Of a stretch of DNA of 37,105 nt, positions 25,500 through 35,267 are shown in pieces. Position numbers and translations under genes: made by a program. The notes under the pieces are model-generated. The model searched no databases. It was not told the origin of the DNA and saw nothing but the letters and a program-made list of their open reading frames with translations. Within the stretch, counting starts at the first letter, position 1. Each line of letters starts with the position of its first letter. The DNA is from Comamonadaceae bacterium. Lineage in GTDB: Bacteria > Pseudomonadota > Gammaproteobacteria > Burkholderiales > Burkholderiaceae_C. The DNA is taken from the NCBI GenBank assembly GCA_947447405.1, contig CANFKQ010000005.1, positions 1 through 37,105 on the forward strand. The letters run 5' to 3'.

Positions 25500-27092
25500 T
25501 TAGAACGTGCGTTTTGCGACGATGGACAACACATCGAGTTCGGCTTGGTGATCCGCCTTGATATCGTTGAAACTCTTGCGTAACTTGTCTTCGCCGGTGG
25601 CTTGGGTAATCAAGCTGAGTTGGTCCACCAATAGCTTGAACTGGGCCGCAGCCAGCGCTGGGTGAGCCTTGGCATCGAGCACCAAACCGTTGGCGTGCGT
25701 GTGGTCTTCGGCTTCTTTGGCGGCAAATTCGGCGCGTGCTTCGTCGGTCAGGCGTTTGACTTCGTCGCCTGACAAATGCAGGCGCTCGGCTTCGGCCACG
25801 ATGAGTTCTTTTTCAGCACGGTCAAGCATGCCGTCTTCATATGCCAGCATTAAGCGTTGCTTGAAGGCTTCGCGGTCAATACGCAGTTGGTCGGTGAATG
25901 CTGATGCCAACAGGCCCGCAGGGATGGCAAAAATACCAATACCAATCAAAGCCACGACCACCGTGAGCAAGCGGCCCAATGGGGTGATGGGCGAAATGTC
26001 ACCGTAGCCCACTGATGCCAAGGTGATGATGGCCCAGTAAATGGATTGGGGAATATTTTCAAACTTGTCAGGCTGCGCCTCATGTTCGAGCAAGAAGCCC
26101 AAGCTGGCAGTCAGCACCACCAGTAACATCATCACAAATACCGATGCAAAGATGACTTGCCACTCGCGCTGCACCACTTTATAAAGGGTTTCCAGGGCTG
26201 AGGTGTAGCGTGTGAGTTTGAGCATCCGAATCAAACGGAAGACGCGCAAGAAACGCAAATCGACATGTTGACTAAATAGGCTTTCCAACACAAAAGGCAA
26301 GATCGCTAACAAGTCGATGATGGCGGAGCCCGAGCGTATATGGGCCCAATGTGGCAAGCGCAGATGCTTGTACTTTGGGTTTTCAGGTGCTGTGTAAACG
26401 CGAGCGATGTATTCGATGGTGAAGATGGTGAAGGCCATCATGTCCACGACATGAAATTCCATAGCAAATAGAGCTCTGAAGGATTCCACGGATTCAAGAA
26501 TCACACAGGTGATGGACAGTGCCACCCAAAACACAATGAAGTTGTCGATGTAGGTGTGCAAGCGACCCGAGTGTCCGGTCGGCACCAACAACGCAAATAT
26601 TTTGGCGCGAAGGGTTCGATCTGCATTGAGCTCTTGAAACTCATGCCACGCCGGAATGATTTGGCGTGACAGTTTGAACATTCGAGCCAATCGCATGATT
26701 CGTAACACGCGCAACATTTCCACATCGACATCCACGAAACGGGCGAAGTAGAAAGGGGCGATGGCAATCAAATCAATTAGCGCATAAAAGCTTATGGCAT
26801 ATCGCAAACGTGGGAAGCTTTTGCCTGCAAAGTCAGGGTTTAGGTGTGCTGTAGCCACACGCATCACATATTCGGCGGTGAAGATGCCTACTGTGACGAT
26901 GTCAAACCAATGGAACCAGTGTTTGTAGTCGTTGTAAATTTCTGGCGTGTTTTCGATCAAGACCGCAATCACGCTCGCCACAATCAGAAACGCAATGCTG
27001 CGTTCCACTTGGCGTTGAAAGCCGTGCTTGAACTCGGGGTCAAACACCCACTTGTAAAAACTGGCGAGTGGCGAGGTGTTGTGCGTGGTCAT
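25500..27092 (-). CDS. Tandem voltage-sensor K+ channel (VSD-VSD-pore)
   Basis: Voltage-gated ion channel superfamily protein of 530 residues with an extra voltage sensor. Sensor 1 has S1 about 32-48, S2 61-80, S3 98-118 and S4 127-143 (LRVLRIMRLARMFKLSR, six charges every third residue). It is not followed by a pore. After a linker, sensor 2 has S1 181-200, S2 212-233, S3 254-273 and S4 279-295 (LRFLRVFRLIRMLKLTR). A pore domain follows: S5 about 311-336, filter TLASVGYGD (357-365) and S6 373-399. The filter is canonical for K+. The cytoplasmic tail has the acidic-helical motif shared by four channels here (420-448) and a further helical stretch. The start overlaps the BacNav-like stop (ATGA), so both are made from one transcript. 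How four or more extra sensors pack around a tetramer is unknown. Confidence 0.93.
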   Translation of the reverse strand: MTTHNTSPLASFYKWVFDPEFKHGFQRQVERSIAFLIVASVIAVLIENTPEIYNDYKHWFHWFDIVTVGIFTAEYVMRVATAHLNPDFAGKSFPRLRYAISFYALIDLIAIAPFYFARFVDVDVEMLRVLRIMRLARMFKLSRQIIPAWHEFQELNADRTLRAKIFALLVPTGHSGRLHTYIDNFIVFWVALSITCVILESVESFRALFAMEFHVVDMMAFTIFTIEYIARVYTAPENPKYKHLRLPHWAHIRSGSAIIDLLAILPFVLESLFSQHVDLRFLRVFRLIRMLKLTRYTSALETLYKVVQREWQVIFASVFVMMLLVVLTASLGFLLEHEAQPDKFENIPQSIYWAIITLASVGYGDISPITPLGRLLTVVVALIGIGIFAIPAGLLASAFTDQLRIDREAFKQRLMLAYEDGMLDRAEKELIVAEAERLHLSGDEVKRLTDEARAEFAAKEAEDHTHANGLVLDAKAHPALAAAQFKLLVDQLSLITQATGEDKLRKSFNDIKADHQAELDVLSIVAKRTF

Positions 27093-27904
27093 CGGGGGTG
27101 TTGGTCGATCATTAATTGGCGCAGCGCAGCCATTTCTTTGCGCAGTTCTTGCAGCTCTTCTTGCACTGTAAGTTGGTGGTGGTGATCACGATGGTCTTTG
27201 TCATGGTCTGCGGTGATGGAGTCCACGATCACAGCGATGAACAAGTTGAAGATGATGAACGTGGCGATCAGGATGAACAGAATGAAGAAGATCCACGCAT
27301 AGGGGAACATTTCCATGACAGGTCGCGCAATTCCGTCTGCCCAGCTTTCCAGCGTCATCACTTGGAACAGGGTAAAGGCACTGGTGCTCAAGTCGCCAAA
27401 CCAATCTGGAAAGTCGTGGCGGAAGATGTTGGTGGCAATCACCGACGCCACATAGAAGATGATCAGAATCAGTCCAAACACCGAGCCCAAGCCAGGCAAT
27501 GAGCTGAGCAAGCCGCCCACCACTTTGCGCATGCTCTCGACTTTGTTGATGAGGCGCAGCACCCGCAACACACGAAGTGCACGCAGCACAGACAAAGAGC
27601 CAGAGGCAGGCACCAGTGCAATGCCCACCACGATGAAGTCAAACACACTCCAAGCGTCTTTGAAAAACGAAAAGCCACGCGCAGCAATGAGCAACACGAT
27701 TTCGGCGATGAAGATGCCCAAGATGACGTGGTCTAGCAAGAACAATTCATGCCCCCACGACTCCATCACACTGTGGTTAGTCTCAATGCCCAAGATGGCG
27801 GCGTTGATGACGATGAGAAAAACTAAGAAATTTTGAATGCCATGGTGCGTAATGAATTGTTCAATTCGATCACGCCAAGTGACGACTTCGATGGTGCTTT
27901 GCAT
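27089..27904 (-). CDS. BacNav-like voltage-gated cation channel with TLESWAD filter
   Basis: Single six-helix channel of the NaChBac/NavAb type, 271 residues, the usual length. S1 is about 23-42, S2 53-75, S3 82-101 and S4 105-120 (LRALRVLRVLRLINK, five charges). S5 is about 138-162. The filter is TLESWAD (184-190), identical to NaChBac through TLESWA, then Asp where NavAb has Met. S6 is about 200-229 with FNLFIAVIVDSI. The neck has a His/Asp-rich stretch (232-243, DHDKDHRDHHH) and a coiled coil (245-267), as in BacNav C-terminal bundles. Aspartate at the outer filter position is the kind of change that raises Ca2+ permeation in engineered NavAb, so Na+ versus Ca2+ preference is open. It is the first gene of the operon with the tandem-sensor K+ channel. 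Confidence 0.94.
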   Translation of the reverse strand: MQSTIEVVTWRDRIEQFITHHGIQNFLVFLIVINAAILGIETNHSVMESWGHELFLLDHVILGIFIAEIVLLIAARGFSFFKDAWSVFDFIVVGIALVPASGSLSVLRALRVLRVLRLINKVESMRKVVGGLLSSLPGLGSVFGLILIIFYVASVIATNIFRHDFPDWFGDLSTSAFTLFQVMTLESWADGIARPVMEMFPYAWIFFILFILIATFIIFNLFIAVIVDSITADHDKDHRDHHHQLTVQEELQELRKEMAALRQLMIDQHPR

Positions 27905-28031
27905 TGCTAAATCCGCGAGCTAACGGTTGATATGTGACAACCTTCCACTCTACCTTATCGAGCTGTTTGTCTCACTGAACGGTGTGTTGGCAGGCGGACG
28001 GAATCCTCAGGTGTTGAAATCAAAGACTTTG

Positions 28032-28062
28032 AAAATTTATTGAATTATTTGATATAAATTTT
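28032..28062. repeat. Perfect AT-rich inverted repeat in the channel spacer
   Basis: AAAATTTAT (28032-28040) and ATAAATTTT (28054-28062) are perfect nine-base inverted arms with a 13-base spacer. The symmetry and position suggest a regulator-binding site; no T-run hairpin terminator is evident. In so AT-rich a tract chance is possible. Confidence 0.5.
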
Positions 28063-28162
28063 GGATTCTTTTGAATTAAAAAAATAATAGATATTTGGTG
28101 AATGTGATTCCCCTTGAATTGAAATAAATCCTTATGGGTTATTCGTGAGGTGTGGTGAGTAC

Positions 28163-28190
28163 AGTGGTCATTCTTAAAATGATGACCGCT
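28163..28190. repeat. Inverted repeat upstream of the K+ channel start
   Basis: AGTGGTCAT and ATGACCGCT pair over nine bases (one G-T) around a 10-base loop, 40 bases before the channel ATG. It could be an operator or a leader hairpin. Confidence 0.45.
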
Positions 28191-28230
28191 CCAAATTTTC
28201 CATTTGGTACCAATAAGGAAAGAAATACCT

Positions 28231-29262
28231 ATGCATGCAAATGTGCGTTACCAAGAAAACTCAGACAGCGTGATTCAACGCGTCTTCACAGACCCCACGA
28301 GCAATGCCTTCATGCGTTGGGTGGCGATGATCAATTTCTGGATTTTTGTGTCTTGTTTGTCTCTGGCCGGTGAAACCGTAGAGCCCTACGCCACCGTTCA
28401 TGCGAACTTGTTCAATTACATTGAATACGCCGCAGTGCTGTTCTTCACGATCGATTACCTTGGCAACTTGTACTTTGCCAAAGATCGCATGAAGTATTTC
28501 TTCAGCTTCTGGGGTTTGGTGGACTTGATCTCCATTTTGCCTACCTACTTGACCATCATGAACTTGACCGCCTTGCAAGGCTCTAAAGTTTTCCGCGTTT
28601 TGCGCGTGGTCCGAGTGCTCCGAGTGTTGAAGATGGCACGCATTGCTTTGCAACAGTTGGAACAAAAACTGGAAAGCTCCAACCCCATCCTGACCAACCT
28701 CAAGATCTATTTCATCGCCTTGTTTTCTGTGGTGATGATCTCTAGCACCTTGATGTACTACGTCGAAGGCGATTTGTATTCCGCAGACGCGATCGCACTG
28801 GGCCAAGCCAAGTTGGATGCGCAAATCAAAGCGACACCGTTGCCTGCGGATGCGCCACCTGAAGCGGCTAAGTTCATGCCTGTGGATCCCATCAGTGGCA
28901 ACCCAATTCCTGAAGACAAGCGTTTCTTCACATCCATCCCTGCAGCGATGTGGTGGTGTATGGTGACTTTGACCACGACGGGTTACGGCGATATGTTCCC
29001 GCTCACTTTTGGTGGACGATTCATTGCCGCAGTCACTATGTTGATGGGCTTGGTACTGTTTGGTATTTTGTTGAACATCGTGGGTAAAACCATCATGGTG
29101 TTGCTGTTTGGTGAGCAGTTGACCGAAGACAACACATCGCCAGCATCACGCGAAACTATTTTGCGCATGATGGTGAGCCGTAAATGGATTTCAGAGCACC
29201 GTGCTTACGAGTTGGAGCTGATGTCTGAAGAAGATATCAAGAACCGCGCGAAAGACCTCTAA
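28231..29262 (+). CDS. Six-helix voltage-gated K+ channel with long turret
   Basis: Voltage-gated K+ channel-like protein, 343 residues from the ATG at 28231, which has AAGGAA ten bases upstream. A TTG-initiated longer form from 28204 is unlikely. S1 is about 29-47, S2 61-82, S3 89-110 and S4 119-137 (KVFRVLRVVRVLRVLKMAR, with Arg or Lys every third residue). S5 is about 158-178. A loop of about 55 residues (179-233), rich in Ala and Pro, separates S5 from the pore helix; most bacterial channels have far shorter turrets. The filter is TLTTTGYGD (246-254), a K+ signature with Thr in place of the usual Val. S6 is about 262-294. The tail is short and lacks the acidic-helical motif of its neighbours. 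Single-gene unit converging on the DUF4337 gene. Confidence 0.93.
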   Translation: MHANVRYQENSDSVIQRVFTDPTSNAFMRWVAMINFWIFVSCLSLAGETVEPYATVHANLFNYIEYAAVLFFTIDYLGNLYFAKDRMKYFFSFWGLVDLISILPTYLTIMNLTALQGSKVFRVLRVVRVLRVLKMARIALQQLEQKLESSNPILTNLKIYFIALFSVVMISSTLMYYVEGDLYSADAIALGQAKLDAQIKATPLPADAPPEAAKFMPVDPISGNPIPEDKRFFTSIPAAMWWCMVTLTTTGYGDMFPLTFGGRFIAAVTMLMGLVLFGILLNIVGKTIMVLLFGEQLTEDNTSPASRETILRMMVSRKWISEHRAYELELMSEEDIKNRAKDL

Positions 29263-29280
29263 GTCATATTTGCCCAATAA

Positions 29281-29310
29281 AAATGGCCGCTCAGTGAGCG
29301 GCCATTTTTT
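29281..29310. terminator. Bidirectional intrinsic terminator
   Basis: AAATGGCCGCTCA and TGAGCGGCCATTT form a 13-base stem around one central base (loop of 3-5 in practice). An A-run precedes and a T-run follows, so it can end both the rightward K+ channel transcript and the leftward operon ending at 29323. Confidence 0.88.
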
Positions 29311-29322
29311 ATGCGGGTTCAT

Positions 29323-29895
29323 TTAGATGAACAACATAAATCCGTTGATGGTGCAGAAGATGCCCACCAAGCCTAGAAAGCAAGGAACCCAAAAGAGGGC
29401 CATGGTTCCAGTCAAGATGGCTACCGAGGTGAGTACGATAGAAATTTGCAGCAAAGCTTCTGCATAGTCAAACCAAGGGTCTTGGCGCAAAGCGATGTCG
29501 CGCTCATGCTCGTGTTCTTTGGCTTTTTCCATCAGCTCTTTCTTGCCGTCGCCAGTTTCTGGTTCGGACTCGTAGCGAGCGATGTTCTTTTCGTAGGCCT
29601 CTAGTTTCTTCTCAGCCATTTGTTTAGCAGCAGGCGAGAGTTTGTCGCTGGCCAGTTGAATGCGTAGCTCATCCGCAGCGATTTTGTAATCTGTCTGACG
29701 AATGTTTTTGGCTTGGTAGAACGAATAAGCGTTGGCAGCCAAGATGTTGTTGCTCATGCTTTCTTTGGACGCGTTGTTACCGCCTAAGCTGGCGATGGCC
29801 AAGCACATGGCCAAAGTCGAGACCAACATGGCGCAACGGGTGCGAAATGGGTCGTTGCCGTGTTCTGGCAATTCGGTTTCTGGAACCTCACTCAT
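29323..29895 (-). CDS. DUF4337 family membrane protein
   Basis: Membrane protein of 190 residues resembling DUF4337. One helix lies at about 20-39 (CAMLVSTLAMCLAIASLG) and a C-terminal pair at about 146-167 and 169-190. Between them is a charged, coiled-coil-prone segment (about 60-135) that opens with AYSFYQAKNIRQ, the recognisable block of the family. The function of DUF4337 is unknown. It is the last gene of the leftward channel operon, overlaps the 67-residue membrane protein gene by 4 bases (ATGA) and ends at a shared terminator. Its position makes it a candidate auxiliary or assembly factor for the channels. It could be an unrelated passenger. Confidence 0.82.
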   Translation of the reverse strand: MSEVPETELPEHGNDPFRTRCAMLVSTLAMCLAIASLGGNNASKESMSNNILAANAYSFYQAKNIRQTDYKIAADELRIQLASDKLSPAAKQMAEKKLEAYEKNIARYESEPETGDGKKELMEKAKEHEHERDIALRQDPWFDYAEALLQISIVLTSVAILTGTMALFWVPCFLGLVGIFCTINGFMLFI

Positions 29896-30095
29896 AGATC
29901 TTCCTTGTTTTTATCTTTGCGTTTGACAAATAATTTGTAGATGGCGACCACGGTCAAGACGGCAGCCACCACACATACCACCAATTCGGTGATGGTCAGT
30001 TGGTGGACGAATTGATCAACGTAGTCGTAGGTCGAGAGAGGCGTGTAAACGTCTGGGTTCTCTTGTTTGTACTTTTCGTAAGCGCCGTTGTCCAT
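29892..30095 (-). CDS. Small single-helix membrane protein, unknown function
   Basis: 67 residues. A charged, tyrosine-containing N-terminus (DVYTPLSTYDYVDQF) is followed by one transmembrane helix at about 34-57 (ITELVVCVVAAVLTVVAIY) and a strongly basic tail (KLFVKRKDKNKEDL), which predicts a cytoplasmic C-terminus. It matches no family I recognise. Evidence that it is real: it fills the space between the channel gene (18-base gap) and the DUF4337 gene (4-base overlap), and an AGAAAG precedes the ATG. The topology is like that of small beta-type or KCNE-type channel auxiliary subunits, but that is only an analogy. Confidence 0.75.
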   Translation of the reverse strand: MDNGAYEKYKQENPDVYTPLSTYDYVDQFVHQLTITELVVCVVAAVLTVVAIYKLFVKRKDKNKEDL

Positions 30096-30113
30096 GCTTG
30101 CTTTCTGTGAGGT

Positions 30114-31082
30114 TTAGGCCTGTTTGTTGGCTGCAGAGATTTGCTTCTCTTCTTCCATCTGGTGTTTGATGGCGTCCACTTGCTCATCAGACATACCCAG
30201 TTTGGCTTGCATGATTTTAAGTTGGGCTTGTTCCTCGTCTGTCACGACACCATCGGCTAGCACGTTGCGAACTTCCATCTCATACAGGGCTTGTCGGCGC
30301 TCCACTTGTGCGGTGTAGGCCGTTGCCACCACACCCGTCAGGATCGCGGCCAAAGCGATGGACAAAATTTGCGTGAAGATGACCAAAATTGTTCCGAAGA
30401 AGGTGATCGGATCCACGTTGCCCCAGCCAGACACGATGGTGATGACAAACCAGTGCATGGCCGCAGGGATGGAGGGAAACACTTCAGGTTGCTCATGGCC
30501 TTCGATGATGTAGATCAGCGAAGAGAACAACAAACAGCTGATGAACAGCAAAAACACGGCGGATGAAAAAGAATCTTTTTCAGCCTTGACGGCTGCCACC
30601 ATGTCTTCAAATGCACTGTTATAGCGAGAGAGTTTGAAAATTCGCATCAAACGGAACATACGCAGTACGCGTAAGTCTGCGCCTGGGAACAGCAGTTGCA
30701 AGTAAAACGGCACCGTGCTGACAAAGTCAATGATGCCGTAGAAGCTGAACACATACTCTTTTCGTCCATCCCACTGCGTCCCACCCGTGCGGAGGTACTT
30801 TTCGCCATAGGACCAAACGCGCATGACGAACTCTACCGAGAACACCGCGACACTGAACATGTCAAACAAGTGGAACTCGTGTTCAAAGGCTTCATGAATT
30901 TCGGGCACAGACTCCAAAATGATGCCAATCACGTTTGCCACCACCAATAGGGCAATGAAAATTTCGACGAAGTGACTGTACTTGTCAGGCACCTCACCTT
31001 CCATGATTTCGAAGGTGCGACGCTTGATGCGTTCGTAAGTAGAAGGGGTCGTAACTGCTGTGGTCATGGTGCGCTCATTCAT
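30114..31082 (-). CDS. Voltage-gated channel-like protein with non-canonical GWGN filter
   Basis: Six-helix voltage-gated channel superfamily protein, 322 residues. S1 is about 37-58, S2 71-91, S3 109-131 and S4 138-153 (LRVLRMFRLMRIFKLSR). S5 is about 171-194 and S6 229-258. Where K+ channels have TxTVGYGD, this protein has TIVSGWGN (215-222): Val for Thr, Ser for Val, Trp for Tyr and Asn for Asp. The pore helix, filter glycines and DP turn remain, so it should still form a pore, but selectivity cannot be predicted. The tail has the acidic-helical motif (277-305) shared with three neighbours. The start overlaps the previous channel gene by 8 bases; an in-frame ATG at 31067 is an alternative start. 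Confidence 0.9.
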   Translation of the reverse strand: MNERTMTTAVTTPSTYERIKRRTFEIMEGEVPDKYSHFVEIFIALLVVANVIGIILESVPEIHEAFEHEFHLFDMFSVAVFSVEFVMRVWSYGEKYLRTGGTQWDGRKEYVFSFYGIIDFVSTVPFYLQLLFPGADLRVLRMFRLMRIFKLSRYNSAFEDMVAAVKAEKDSFSSAVFLLFISCLLFSSLIYIIEGHEQPEVFPSIPAAMHWFVITIVSGWGNVDPITFFGTILVIFTQILSIALAAILTGVVATAYTAQVERRQALYEMEVRNVLADGVVTDEEQAQLKIMQAKLGMSDEQVDAIKHQMEEEKQISAANKQA

Positions 31083-31986
31083 TGGCGGACGATTTGTTTT
31101 TGGCGCGGAGCATCATGGCTTCGACTTGCTCATCTGTCAGGCGGTAATGTGCTTGCAGACGTTGCAGCGTTTCTTGCTCTTCTTCTGACATGTTGCCATC
31201 TTTGAAAACTTCGCGCAGCTGGGCTTCAAATGCCGCTTTCTTGCGTGCCACTTGGTTGGAGAAGGCCGAAGCCACGATACCGGTCATGATGGCGGCCATA
31301 CACACGCCCAAGAAGCCAGTGATGAGCGCAATGGCTTCACCTGCTTTGGTCATGGGCTCGACGTTGCCGTAACCTGAGGTGATGGTCACGATGGACCAAT
31401 AAATGGAATGAGGAATGGTGCCAAAAAACTCGGGTTGGTGGTGTCCTTCAGCGAAGTGCATCAACGAGGCTGACACGATGGTGGCGATGGTCAACAAGAA
31501 CACAGCTGAGCCAAATGCTTGGCGTTCGGAGTGAATGGCATGAAACAGGTCTTGCAACGCAGTGTTGTATTTGGAGAGTTTCAAAATCCGCAGCAGACGC
31601 AGCACCCGCAAGATGCGTAAGTCCAAGCCGGGCATGAACATGTGCATGTAATAAGGCATGGTGGCAAAGAAGTCCACCAAACCAAATGCGCTGAACATGT
31701 ACTCAAAGCGGCCTTTCCAAGTTCCGCCGTGTTCTTGGCTGTATTTGGCGCCCAAGGACCACACGCGAGAAATGTATTCACATGTAAAGAACATCACGCT
31801 CCAAAATTCGAGCTCATGAAAGAAGTCACGAAATTCTGCGTGGATTTCGGGGACGGAATCAAGAATCACGGCCGAACAGTTGACCAACACCACAAGTGTG
31901 ATGGCCCATTCAACGTAGCGGCTGGCTGTGTGCTTGGGCGAGCCATCCAGTATTTCCATCAGGGTGTTCTTAAAACCTGTAGTCAT
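31075..31986 (-). CDS. Voltage-gated channel-like protein with non-canonical SGYGN filter
   Basis: Six-helix voltage-gated channel superfamily protein, 303 residues. S1 is about 24-45, S2 60-78, S3 96-117 and S4 123-139 (LRILRVLRLLRILKLSK). S5 is about 155-179 and S6 213-243. The filter reads TITSGYGN (201-208), keeping Gly-Tyr-Gly but with Ser for Val before it and Asn for Asp after it. It is clearly a paralogue of the GWGN channel encoded next, with the same layout and tail motif (263-291), and the two genes overlap, which suggests heteromeric assembly. Upstream is a 94-base spacer with a strong hairpin and an AT-rich promoter-like stretch, so it may begin its own transcript. Confidence 0.91.
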   Translation of the reverse strand: MTTGFKNTLMEILDGSPKHTASRYVEWAITLVVLVNCSAVILDSVPEIHAEFRDFFHELEFWSVMFFTCEYISRVWSLGAKYSQEHGGTWKGRFEYMFSAFGLVDFFATMPYYMHMFMPGLDLRILRVLRLLRILKLSKYNTALQDLFHAIHSERQAFGSAVFLLTIATIVSASLMHFAEGHHQPEFFGTIPHSIYWSIVTITSGYGNVEPMTKAGEAIALITGFLGVCMAAIMTGIVASAFSNQVARKKAAFEAQLREVFKDGNMSEEEQETLQRLQAHYRLTDEQVEAMMLRAKNKSSANE

Positions 31987-32007
31987 TGCGAAGGTCTAAC
32001 GAAATTA

Positions 32008-32013
32008 AATATA
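32008..32013 (-). promoter_or_regulatory. Possible -10 box for the GYGN/GWGN channel genes
   Basis: On the minus strand TATATT is followed by TAATTT in an AT-rich stretch 22 bases before the ATG at 31986, just beyond a strong hairpin. A TTGGCT at 32025-32030 is too close for an ideal -35 box to this site, so the exact promoter is uncertain. Confidence 0.3.
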
Positions 32014-32029
32014 AGAAGTGTTTGAGCCA

Positions 32030-32064
32030 ACAAGCCGCCACACGTTCAAGGTGTGGCGGCTTGT
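32030..32064. repeat. Strong 14-base-pair hairpin between channel genes
   Basis: ACAAGCCGCCACAC (32030-32043) and GTGTGGCGGCTTGT (32051-32064) are perfect arms with a 7-base loop, 16 bases after the stop of the upstream tandem-sensor channel. No good T-run follows on the minus strand, so it is either a weak terminator or a processing/stability element that sets different levels of the genes on each side. Confidence 0.75.
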
Positions 32065-32080
32065 GGATGGAGACCTTGGC

Positions 32081-33718
32081 TTAGGCTTTGCCTTGAATTT
32101 TTTGCCACAAGGCCAATTCATGGGCCGACAGACGTTCACCTTGTTGCGCTGCTGTCTCAAATTGGGTCGCATCGGTTTGCACGCCGAGTTGTCGAATTTG
32201 GCCTAACAACACTTTGTAGTGCTCGACAGCCAGAGCTGGATTTTCTGCAATTTTGTGAATGGGCAGCGGGTTGCGTTCTTCCAACTCGTGTTCTTTGATG
32301 ACCACTTCAATCAAGGCGTTGACTTCAGCGGTTGTCAAATGCAAGCGCTTGGCTTCGGAGCGAATGATCACAGCTTCATCGTCGCTGATGTGGCCGTCTT
32401 TGAGGATGGCAAACAAGTTGGCTTTCAACTGGTCACGTTCTTTGACCAATTCATCACTGAAGGCCGAGGCCAACAGCGCAGCAGGAATCGCAAATATACC
32501 AATGCCCATCAAAGCCAGAACGCTTGTCATCGCTCGGCCCATCGGTGTGACAGGTGAAATGTCGCCATAACCCACAGAGGCCAAGGTGATGACCGCCCAG
32601 TAGATGGAGGTGGGAATGTTCTCAAATTTCTCAGGCTGAGCGTCGTATTCAAACAAGTAGCCTAAGCTGGCGGTCAAGACCAATAGCAACATCATGATGA
32701 AGGTGGCGGCCCCCATGACAGGCCATTCGCGCACGACGACTTTGACCAACACGGCGGTAGCATCGCTGCCGCGTGTTAGTTTGAGCAATCGTGCCAATCG
32801 GAAAACTCGCAAGAAACGCAAGTCCATCAAGTGATGCAAGAACACTTCCAAGAAGAAGGGCAGCACGGCCAAGAAGTCAATGAACGTGGAGGGTGATTTG
32901 GCCTGCTTGAAGCGACCCAAAAACGCACCTTTGTAACCAGGCTCTTCCACGCAAGAGTAAATGCGCATGCAGTACTCAACCGTGAAGATGGCCACGGCCA
33001 CGGCGTCCAAGATGACAAATTGCAAGTGCAACACGTAGTGAATGCCCTTCACCGATTCCAAGATCACAGCCATCACAGACAGCAAAACCCACACTGCAAT
33101 GAACACCTCAAAGATGTTTTGCATGGTGCCGCCGTAGTTGCTAGGAAATACCAAGGCATGAACTTTTTGGCGGAAGGTACGGTCTTTGTTGAGTTCTTTG
33201 AATTCAGCCATGGCTGGAATCAACACACGGAACAACTTCAAGATTCGCAAGAGTCGCAAGAATCGCAACACGCGCAAGTCGATGGGGATGAAGGCCTTCA
33301 AGTAGAAGGGCGCCACAGCTAAGAAGTCGATGATGGCGAAGGGGCTAGACACAAAGCCCCAACGTGCATGCTTGCGGTTTTTGAACTCTTCGTCCTCGGG
33401 GGCGAGGTACAGGCGCAAAGCGTATTCAATGGTGAACACGGCCACCGATAGGATGTCAAAAAACTCAAACCATCCGCGGTACGGCTCGTATACGGCAGGT
33501 ACGTGTTCAAACATGAGGCTGAACAAGTTACCAATAATCAGATAGCTGATCCACTTGTCCAGGTCTTTTTGAAAGTTGCCAGGAATGTTGGGATCCAGCA
33601 GCCATGAGTACAACCACTTGCGCATCGGCAGGTTGCGATCAATGTTGGCCTCTTCGTCTTGTCCCAGAATGGCTTGGACGTTGAGGTCTTTTAGAAATTT
33701 GTCGTGTTTGTTTTCCAT
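32081..33718 (-). CDS. Tandem voltage-sensor K+ channel (VSD-VSD-pore), second copy
   Basis: 545 residues with the same architecture as the protein encoded at 25500-27092, but diverged. After a hydrophilic N-terminus of about 50 residues, sensor 1 has S1 55-72, S2 85-105, S3 125-143 and S4 148-164 (LRVLRFLRLLRILKLFR). Sensor 2 has S1 202-221, S2 234-255, S3 277-294 and S4 300-316 (LRFLRVFRLARLLKLTR). S5 is 331-356, filter TLASVGYGD 378-386 and S6 395-420. The tail carries the shared acidic-helical motif (441-469) and a further helical stretch that resembles the tail of the first copy. A Shine-Dalgarno GAGG six bases before the ATG overlaps the upstream stop, and only eight bases separate the genes. 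The K+ filter is canonical. Sensor 1 has a full set of charges, so it is probably functional rather than vestigial. Confidence 0.93.
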   Translation of the reverse strand: MENKHDKFLKDLNVQAILGQDEEANIDRNLPMRKWLYSWLLDPNIPGNFQKDLDKWISYLIIGNLFSLMFEHVPAVYEPYRGWFEFFDILSVAVFTIEYALRLYLAPEDEEFKNRKHARWGFVSSPFAIIDFLAVAPFYLKAFIPIDLRVLRFLRLLRILKLFRVLIPAMAEFKELNKDRTFRQKVHALVFPSNYGGTMQNIFEVFIAVWVLLSVMAVILESVKGIHYVLHLQFVILDAVAVAIFTVEYCMRIYSCVEEPGYKGAFLGRFKQAKSPSTFIDFLAVLPFFLEVFLHHLMDLRFLRVFRLARLLKLTRGSDATAVLVKVVVREWPVMGAATFIMMLLLVLTASLGYLFEYDAQPEKFENIPTSIYWAVITLASVGYGDISPVTPMGRAMTSVLALMGIGIFAIPAALLASAFSDELVKERDQLKANLFAILKDGHISDDEAVIIRSEAKRLHLTTAEVNALIEVVIKEHELEERNPLPIHKIAENPALAVEHYKVLLGQIRQLGVQTDATQFETAAQQGERLSAHELALWQKIQGKA

Positions 33719-33726
33719 GTCAGACC

Positions 33727-34314
33727 TCAGAATTCGAATTCAGCAACTTTGATGGCATAGCCGCCCTTGTCACACACGGACAGGCGCAACTGCATCTTGT
33801 AGTCAATGGGGTCGGCTTCGATCAATTGCGAGGCCACAAAGGGGGTGGCAGAGCCAGGTGGGGTCGGCATCAAGTCTTCCAACAAGATGGCGCCCATCAA
33901 GGTGCGGTCAGAAGGCACGCATGCCGGCACAAAGTGTGGTGCGACATTGAAGAATGGATTGATTTGCTCTTTCAGATCCGTGGTTTCCATGATGTGTGCC
34001 AAGCAAGCGCCCCACGTGCCAGCAGTGCCTGCTTTGGCGTCGGCGCCAGGTTTGGTGCCCCCTTTGCAGGCAGGGTGCTGCGTGTTGGCTTCAAAGCGCG
34101 TGGTGCCGGTTTCGGTCAACCACGCAACCCAAGCCTCGCCATTGCTTTTGGCCGTTTCGGTCTTTAGAGCTTCTTTGTAATTGACCACACCTAGCCAGGT
34201 AACGGCAATCACAATCAAGACTAAAAAGGCTAGAAAAATTTTGTCGGCGGTGTTGGGGCCGAGTTGCTGCTGATCGCTTGAGTGATCTGTGGAAGATGCC
34301 ATGGGTATCGCCAT
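33727..34314 (-). CDS. Membrane-anchored periplasmic protein, unknown; first gene of channel operon
   Basis: 195 residues with no family I recognise. A short hydrophilic start is followed by one membrane helix at about 25-45 (KIFLAFLVLIVIAVTWLGVV). The remaining 150 residues should be periplasmic and contain exactly four cysteines (83, 104, 132, 181), which could form two disulfides. There is no lipobox or prepilin motif. It is 8 bases before the tandem-sensor K+ channel gene, whose ribosome-binding site overlaps its stop, so the two are made together. A channel auxiliary subunit that contacts the extracellular face is a reasonable inference but untested. An alternative start at the ATG at 34302 would remove four residues. 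Confidence 0.82.
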   Translation of the reverse strand: MAIPMASSTDHSSDQQQLGPNTADKIFLAFLVLIVIAVTWLGVVNYKEALKTETAKSNGEAWVAWLTETGTTRFEANTQHPACKGGTKPGADAKAGTAGTWGACLAHIMETTDLKEQINPFFNVAPHFVPACVPSDRTLMGAILLEDLMPTPPGSATPFVASQLIEADPIDYKMQLRLSVCDKGGYAIKVAEFEF

Positions 34315-34460
34315 TGAAATGAAGGAAATCCGGTCTGGCTAGAGAGATAGCTGGCCGGTCGAAAGTGGGTTTGATGATATTCGTAAATATGTTGAATTTA
34401 TCGAATTAACACGAGATATTAGGGCGGCTCGCTGTTCTTAATGAATATTAAAGATGTAAA
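34315..34460 (-). promoter_or_regulatory. AT-rich leader/promoter region of the leftward channel operon
   Basis: About 145 bases without a gene between the ABC-importer terminator and the first channel-operon gene. The stretch 34371-34420 is AT-rich. It holds a small palindrome ATATT-CGTA-AATAT (34377-34390) and an imperfect repeat (TTCG-TAAAT, 34380-34388, against ATTTATCGAA, 34396-34405). TATCAT on the minus strand is a possible -10 box, but I see no convincing -35. Confidence 0.45.
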
Positions 34461-34486
34461 AAAAGCCGCTATGAAAGCGGCTTTTT
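34461..34486. terminator. Intrinsic terminator of the ABC importer operon
   Basis: AAAAGCCGCT and AGCGGCTTTT pair as a ten-base stem with a five-base loop. On the minus strand a T-run follows directly, 13 bases after the permease stop. The T-run on the plus strand also allows action in that direction. Confidence 0.82.
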
Positions 34487-34499
34487 CGTTTGTTAAAAC

Positions 34500-35267
34500 T
34501 CAGTGGTTTTGCGAGCCTCGGTGGGCCCAGCCTGTGGTGTGTTTTTCCACCAAACTGAACAGCTCATACATGATCATGGCCATGGCACCCACCACCACCA
34601 AACCTGCAAAAGCTAAGCCCATTTGCATGGCGGAGCCCGCTGAGATTAGCAAGTAGCCAATGCCTTCGTTGGCAGCTGTCATCTCAGAGACGGTGGTGCC
34701 CACAAAGGCCAAGGTGATCGCCACTTTGAGTGAGCCATAAAAGTAGGGCATGGAGCGAGGCAGGCCCACTTTGATTAGCACGTCCCAGCGTTTAGCGCCC
34801 AAGACGCGTAACACGTCTTCGAGCTCGGGCTCAAGCGTCGCTAAGCCCGTGGCGATGTTCACCATGATGGGGAAGAAGCTGATCAAGAACGCGGTCAAGA
34901 TGGCCGGGCCCACGCCAATGCCAAACCACACCACTAAGATCGGTACAAAGGCGGCTTTGGGCAAAGCGTTGAAGCCCGTCATAAGCGGGTACACGGCAGC
35001 ATAAGCCAAGCGTGAGCTGCCGATGACAAAGCCCAACAGAACGCCCACGACGATGGCAATCCCAAAACCCACCATGGTCACCCAATAGGTACGCCAAGCG
35101 TGGCCTGCAATGACGTCGCGGTATTCGACCATTTGCTCCCAAATGCGCAGGGGCGAGGGAAAAACAAATTCAGACACATTAAATAGCGAACACGCGGCTT
35201 GCCAAATGAGCAAAGTAGTCACGAGCAAGCCCCAAGGCGCCCAAGTTTCAAGTTGTTTTTGGTTCAT
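34500..35267 (-). CDS. ABC importer permease, TauC/SsuC type
   Basis: Inner-membrane permease of 255 residues with about six helices. The ATPase-contact EAA-like loop is visible as LEDVLRVLGAKRWDVLIKVGLPRSMPYF. Other family blocks are WVTMVGFGIAIVVGVLLGFVIG and LPKAAFVPILVVWFGIGVGPAI, followed by FVGTTVSEMTAANEGIGYLL. Proteins of this group import sulfonates, nitrate or thiamine/pyrimidine precursors; the substrate is not decided by the permease. It follows the ATPase gene by 5 bases and is the last gene of the operon. Confidence 0.93.
   Translation of the reverse strand: MNQKQLETWAPWGLLVTTLLIWQAACSLFNVSEFVFPSPLRIWEQMVEYRDVIAGHAWRTYWVTMVGFGIAIVVGVLLGFVIGSSRLAYAAVYPLMTGFNALPKAAFVPILVVWFGIGVGPAILTAFLISFFPIMVNIATGLATLEPELEDVLRVLGAKRWDVLIKVGLPRSMPYFYGSLKVAITLAFVGTTVSEMTAANEGIGYLLISAGSAMQMGLAFAGLVVVGAMAMIMYELFSLVEKHTTGWAHRGSQNH

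Follow-up and report, generated by a model that had tools for sequence, protein, structure and literature searches.

A candidate auxiliary subunit encoded directly upstream of a clade of bacterial voltage-gated K+ channels

Many voltage-gated K+ and Na+ channels of animals owe part of their properties to auxiliary subunits with a single membrane pass, and bacterial channels have been studied as stand-alone pores. The animal Nav beta subunits have an immunoglobulin fold and a type I topology, opposite to that favoured for the protein described here. DPP6 and DPP10 are auxiliary subunits of animal Kv4 channels; DPP6S acts on the S1-S2 region of Kv4, and S1-S2 binding is known for DPP6S only (PMC8566240). 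Among the KCNE subunits of Kv7 channels, KCNE3 acts on S1 of KCNQ1, and KCNE1 is a protein of 129 residues (PMC10950684). A search of the open-access literature turned up neither a membrane or periplasmic auxiliary subunit described for a bacterial voltage-gated channel nor a bacterial K+ channel with two sensors and one pore; both are weak negative evidence, because the search covered open-access papers only.

The window analysed here is a stretch of 37,105 nucleotides from a Comamonadaceae genome. Gene X lies on its minus strand (33727..34314) and encodes a protein of 195 residues with a single anchor and four cysteines, a putative channel partner. Translation probably starts at Met5 (34302), since 20 of 20 close relatives share this residue; it is also the first residue common to the X homologues, and the protein would then have 191 residues. 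The dN/dS values of X against its relatives are 0.07–0.28, which indicates purifying selection, and X is therefore a real gene; it evolves faster than its neighbour C1 (0.03–0.14). No family was matched in Pfam or NCBIfam up to E = 1, no member of the X family alignment gave a convincing match to Pfam, the matches in Pfam, NCBIfam, PHROGs and PDB were at chance level only, and a plasmid search returned no X homologue.

X is located 8 nt upstream of the channel gene C1. The stop codon TGA of X overlaps the GAGG ribosome-binding site of C1 (33719..33729, minus strand), which stands 6 nt before the C1 ATG, the junction being TTC TGA GG TCTGAC ATG. The pattern TGAGGT, followed by 4–6 bases and ATG, is preserved in Limnohabitans-like relatives, and in a distant family the stop and start overlap as ATGA. 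The gene next upstream of X on the same strand encodes an ABC permease (34500-35267) and is separated from X by a terminator-like hairpin (34460..34486), so X is taken as the first gene of the operon. The initial annotation had described X as a protein of no recognised family, first in its operon and translationally linked to a channel gene whose ribosome-binding site overlaps its stop, and all of this agrees with the data, the linkage itself being conserved.

C1 (32081..33718, minus strand) encodes a K+ channel of 545 residues, in which two voltage-sensor domains and one pore are recognised as two Ion_trans stretches and Ion_trans_2. The first voltage sensor spans residues 50–176 (33191..33571), the second residues 197–314 (32777..33130) and the pore domain residues 332–441 (32396..32725), all encoded on the minus strand. 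The arginine ladders of the two S4 motifs are found at residues 149 and 301, the selectivity filter is TLASVGYGD, and the model of C1 places its membrane helices in a 4+6 layout. For the second sensor together with the pore, the best PDB matches, by sequence and by fold, include KCNQ and Kv channels. Two single-sensor channels, C2 (303 residues, 31075..31986) and C3 (322 residues, 30114..31082), follow downstream in the same operon on the minus strand.

X and C1 form a consistent and closely spaced gene pair, in which the stop of the one overlaps the ribosome site of the other. Wherever the flanks could be read, whether at the genus, the family or the order level, each X homologue lies directly 5′ of a channel of the C1 clade. 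At 20 X loci from a species-level genome collection, X stands directly before C1 wherever the channel side could be read; the ABC genes on the flank and the more distal channels are variable. In the same genus, 84 genomes were compared: X is present in 71, C1 (at ≥60% identity) in 71 and both in 70. This set has 75 X matches. In 69 of them a C1 channel follows directly downstream; the remaining six are at or within ~620 nt of contig ends, and one of these still shows the N-terminus of C1. None of the 54 other channel matches in the genus (C4, the C1b group and single-sensor forms) is preceded by X. In the family sample (301 genomes), the five genomes with X are also the five with full-length C1; in one of them (G178; L104 / L027) both genes are broken, X by one stop and the channel by a frame change, which is consistent with a joint decay. 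In the order sample (349 genomes), true X and C1-clade tandem channels are shared by the same three, namely the genome of the window, G1044 and G920. Two further families carry the pair among unrelated neighbours: X overlaps the tandem channel by ATGA in G1044, with an FlhB-like gene in the neighbourhood, is flanked in G920 by a C2-like channel and the tandem channel, and is found in the order TrkH, X, tandem channel in G1057 and G1061. Hence the pair has outlasted changes of its surroundings, in three families in all. The initial annotation had named homologues lying mostly away from channel genes as evidence against its reading; the searches at genus, family and order level gave the opposite picture.

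Loci that lack C2, C3 or the ABC genes retain the pair as well, and C2 and C3 were ruled out as the partner of X, given the persistence of X-C1 without them at several loci. Two further matches in the order sample were rejected as X, one in G985 (E 7.9e-4), which is a true prepilin, and one in G1001 (E 1.1e-3), which is a membrane-fusion-type protein; at this E level ~0.3 false matches are expected over 349 genomes.

On a tree built from the second-sensor/pore region of the channels, a quick tree with several moderately supported nodes, the X label requires 2 changes versus ~20 in shuffles. The distribution may be read as X having been gained once, at the root of the C1 clade, and lost once, in C1b. 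X is linked to one channel clade, not to tandem-sensor channels as such, and any tandem-sensor channel was ruled out as its partner, since C4 and C1b are without X. The proposed co-occurrence with tandem-sensor channels was thus found for the C1 clade and not for C4 or C1b, and two single-sensor members of the clade keep X as well. These two channels, in G277 and G621, are each preceded by an ORF of 154 residues with four cysteines, a divergent form of X (hhalign E 1.5e-9; score 61.7 versus at most 21 in 100 shuffles with the cysteines fixed, 0/100 reaching it). Since X is retained by channels that lack the first sensor, its likely contact is the second-sensor/pore module, and it is probably this module that X serves. 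Among the residues unique to the X-linked channels, Trp332, where S5 begins, is the only conspicuous one (23/23; Thr in C1b; mixed elsewhere), and it is too weak to claim as the X interface.

The C1b tandem channels (L100, L101, L102, L107, L108, L109; 53–56% to C1) form a long branch nested in the X clade. They have lost X, are located elsewhere and most have an ORF of 111 residues downstream, which makes them a natural X-free control. X is, so, not intrinsically needed by this channel type.

Taken as a reading of the genetics, X probably serves the bacterial voltage-gated K+ channels of the C1 clade as a dedicated partner, and auxiliary subunit, as the initial annotation had suggested, is its most likely role. 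X would be translated first, just before the channel, would insert into the membrane by its one helix, and its remaining domain, probably periplasmic, would be folded by two disulfides formed from the four invariant cysteines. It could then join the channel while the latter is being made, and coupled translation would keep the amounts of X and C1 matched. The helix of X may pack against the second voltage sensor or the pore, like the single-pass partners in animal Kv channels, and such packing would shift the gating, stability or assembly of C1. X could in this way influence the movement of the sensor, as DPP6S does at S1-S2 of Kv4 or KCNE3 at S1 of KCNQ1. The main rival, which we consider decidedly unlikely, is that X is a channel-specific assembly or insertion factor, which holds the nascent ten-helix channel while it folds or assembles into a tetramer and forms no part of the working channel. 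The first position of X, the conserved overlap of stop and ribosome-binding site and the one-to-one pairing would fit this role equally well. However, single-sensor channels without the extra helices keep X, and the tandem channels C4 and C1b exist without it.

X contains one hydrophobic segment (residues ~26–45). In the AlphaFold2 model, this segment and an extension form a continuous helix predicted for residues 22–72 (34099..34251, minus strand; local pLDDT 68–94). The structure prediction that had been proposed for the outside domain gave a mean pLDDT of 68 for the model, with the domain poorly modelled and three C-terminal strands at low confidence. Foldseek returned nothing below E 1.8 with the X model, as expected because of its low confidence. 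An alignment of 24 X proteins (17–87% identity to the X of the window) has six invariant columns only, Asp20, Cys79, Cys100, Cys128, Gly137 and Cys177 in the 191-residue numbering. In the 195-residue numbering, the invariant aspartate at the start of the membrane helix is Asp24 (codon 34243..34245) and the cysteines are Cys83 (34066..34068), Cys104 (34003..34005), Cys132 (33919..33921) and Cys181 (33772..33774), all on the minus strand and each found in 24/24 proteins. The four cysteines are thus invariant down to 17% identity, and the linker between the first and the second is highly variable in length.

The single anchor and the four cysteines described in the initial annotation are borne out, and its placement of the domain outside the cytoplasm is likely, although the charge rule leans the other way. 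Summed over the 24 proteins, K and R within 15 residues of the helix number 35 before and 64 after it, a count that by the positive-inside rule is ambiguous, leaning to a cytoplasmic domain. We nevertheless place the domain in the periplasm with good confidence, because its four invariant cysteines are isolated, Arg makes up only 2.1% of the soluble part and X is similar to pilins. It is improbable that X plays the same partner role with its four-cysteine domain in the cytoplasm (N-out, C-in) and its cysteines acting as metal ligands or as a thiol sensor. The short and poorly charged N-terminal tail of X would suit such an orientation, as does the positive-inside count, but the cysteines stand singly and far apart, not in CxxC pairs, the Arg content is low, and the domain of pilins is outside. 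A role for X as an independent envelope sensor or structural protein, which would only share its expression with the channel as part of a common stress response, is highly improbable: in other families the genes beside X serve K+ or transport functions (TrkH), but X was never found without the channel and the pair stays together across the three families.

Since ~0.3 false matches are expected over the order sample, the single prepilin match in G985 proves nothing alone; what justified following the lead was the support from shuffle controls and from the unselected Cys/NPF region. The X profile aligned with three four-cysteine prepilins (L154-L156) at an hhalign probability of 93% and E 2.6e-7. 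The order Cys-Cys-NPF-Cys-Cys is common to both, with Cys-Cys-NPF aligned to Cys-Cys-NPF, and the invariant Asp20 of X aligns with Glu5 of the four-cysteine pilins, being Asp instead of Glu. The helix part of X scored 28.6 versus 9.6 ± 2.5 in segment shuffles, and the C-terminal part gave a weak score of 18.9 versus 10.1 ± 1.9; in both cases 0/100 shuffles reached the real score. For the region in which pilins carry their globular domain (beta sheet, D-region disulfide), X thus shows this weak score and, in the model, the three low-confidence strands. When the X profile was ranked against 82 unrelated single-anchor ORFs, a small background that includes spurious ORFs, the pilins came at the top. 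The predicted X helix 22–72 corresponds to the long alpha-1 helix of pilins (~50 residues, one half in the membrane and one half exposed), and an acidic residue at the start of the long N-terminal helix is common to X and type IV pilins. Unlike the pilins, X has no cleavage motif and sits with a channel. The prepilin peptidase motif (G-F-x-x-x-E) is absent before the helix in all 24 X proteins, no pilin family was matched in Pfam, no pilin was found in the PDB at E up to 10, and none appeared among the best 50 Foldseek rows. The resemblance of X to four-cysteine type IV pilins without a prepilin cleavage site is therefore a lead, not proof. A tentative and rather doubtful extension is that betaproteobacteria captured a four-cysteine type IV pilin and made of it an auxiliary-subunit family of their own for voltage-gated K+ channels. 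X would then be a pilin that lost its prepilin cleavage site, remained anchored and now informs the second voltage sensor of conditions in the periplasm (redox, ligand or wall contact, via the disulfide domain).

Compared with the animal subunits, X shares a layout and no sequence relationship, in line with the initial annotation, which had likened the layout, not the sequence, to animal channel beta subunits; searches of Pfam, NCBIfam and PDB gave no sequence homology to DPP, KCNE or Nav beta proteins. Like DPP6/DPP10, X has one membrane helix, the bulk of the protein as a folded domain on one side and a pairing with a voltage-gated K+ channel. The DPPs carry a large dipeptidyl-peptidase-like domain, whereas X has ~150 residues with four cysteines and is coupled to its channel in an operon. 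Like the KCNE subunits, X would be a small single-pass partner of a K+ channel, and the best matches of C1 include KCNQ, but X has a conserved cysteine domain. With the Nav beta subunits X shares a single anchor and a small cysteine-containing domain; no sequence or fold match was found between them. The dedicated association with a voltage-gated channel that marks animal beta subunits is seen in X as genetic pairing, and the single helix is present, with the charge count leaning to a cytoplasmic main domain. The likeness to DPP6S and KCNE3 is one of functional analogy, not homology.

X is thus a strong candidate for the kind of dedicated channel partner that has so far been familiar only from animals. 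X-C1 would be a minimal, operon-encoded channel/partner pair of independent origin in freshwater bacteria, with the X-free paralogues in the same genomes as controls. It makes testable why the channel carries two voltage sensors and what use the bacterium has for it.

Six genes of the voltage-gated-channel type are clustered in a region of ~8 kb (25500-33718), in an island largely conserved in close relatives. Its members are C1, C2, C3, a K+ channel of 352 residues on the plus strand, a Nav/Cav-like channel of 271 residues and C4, a second tandem-sensor channel. Within 25500-27904, C4 overlaps the stop of the Nav/Cav-like channel gene, and thus it is coupled to another channel instead of X; in G656 (L128), two Nav/Cav-like channel genes flank a diverged tandem channel. 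The filters of C2 and C3 are non-canonical (TITSGYGN and TIVSGWGN) and are repeated in orthologues, that of C1 being of the TxGYGD type. The island also encodes, at 29323-30095, a DUF4337 protein and a single-helix protein of 67 residues, which are kept with the channels in close relatives and absent from more distant X-C1 loci.
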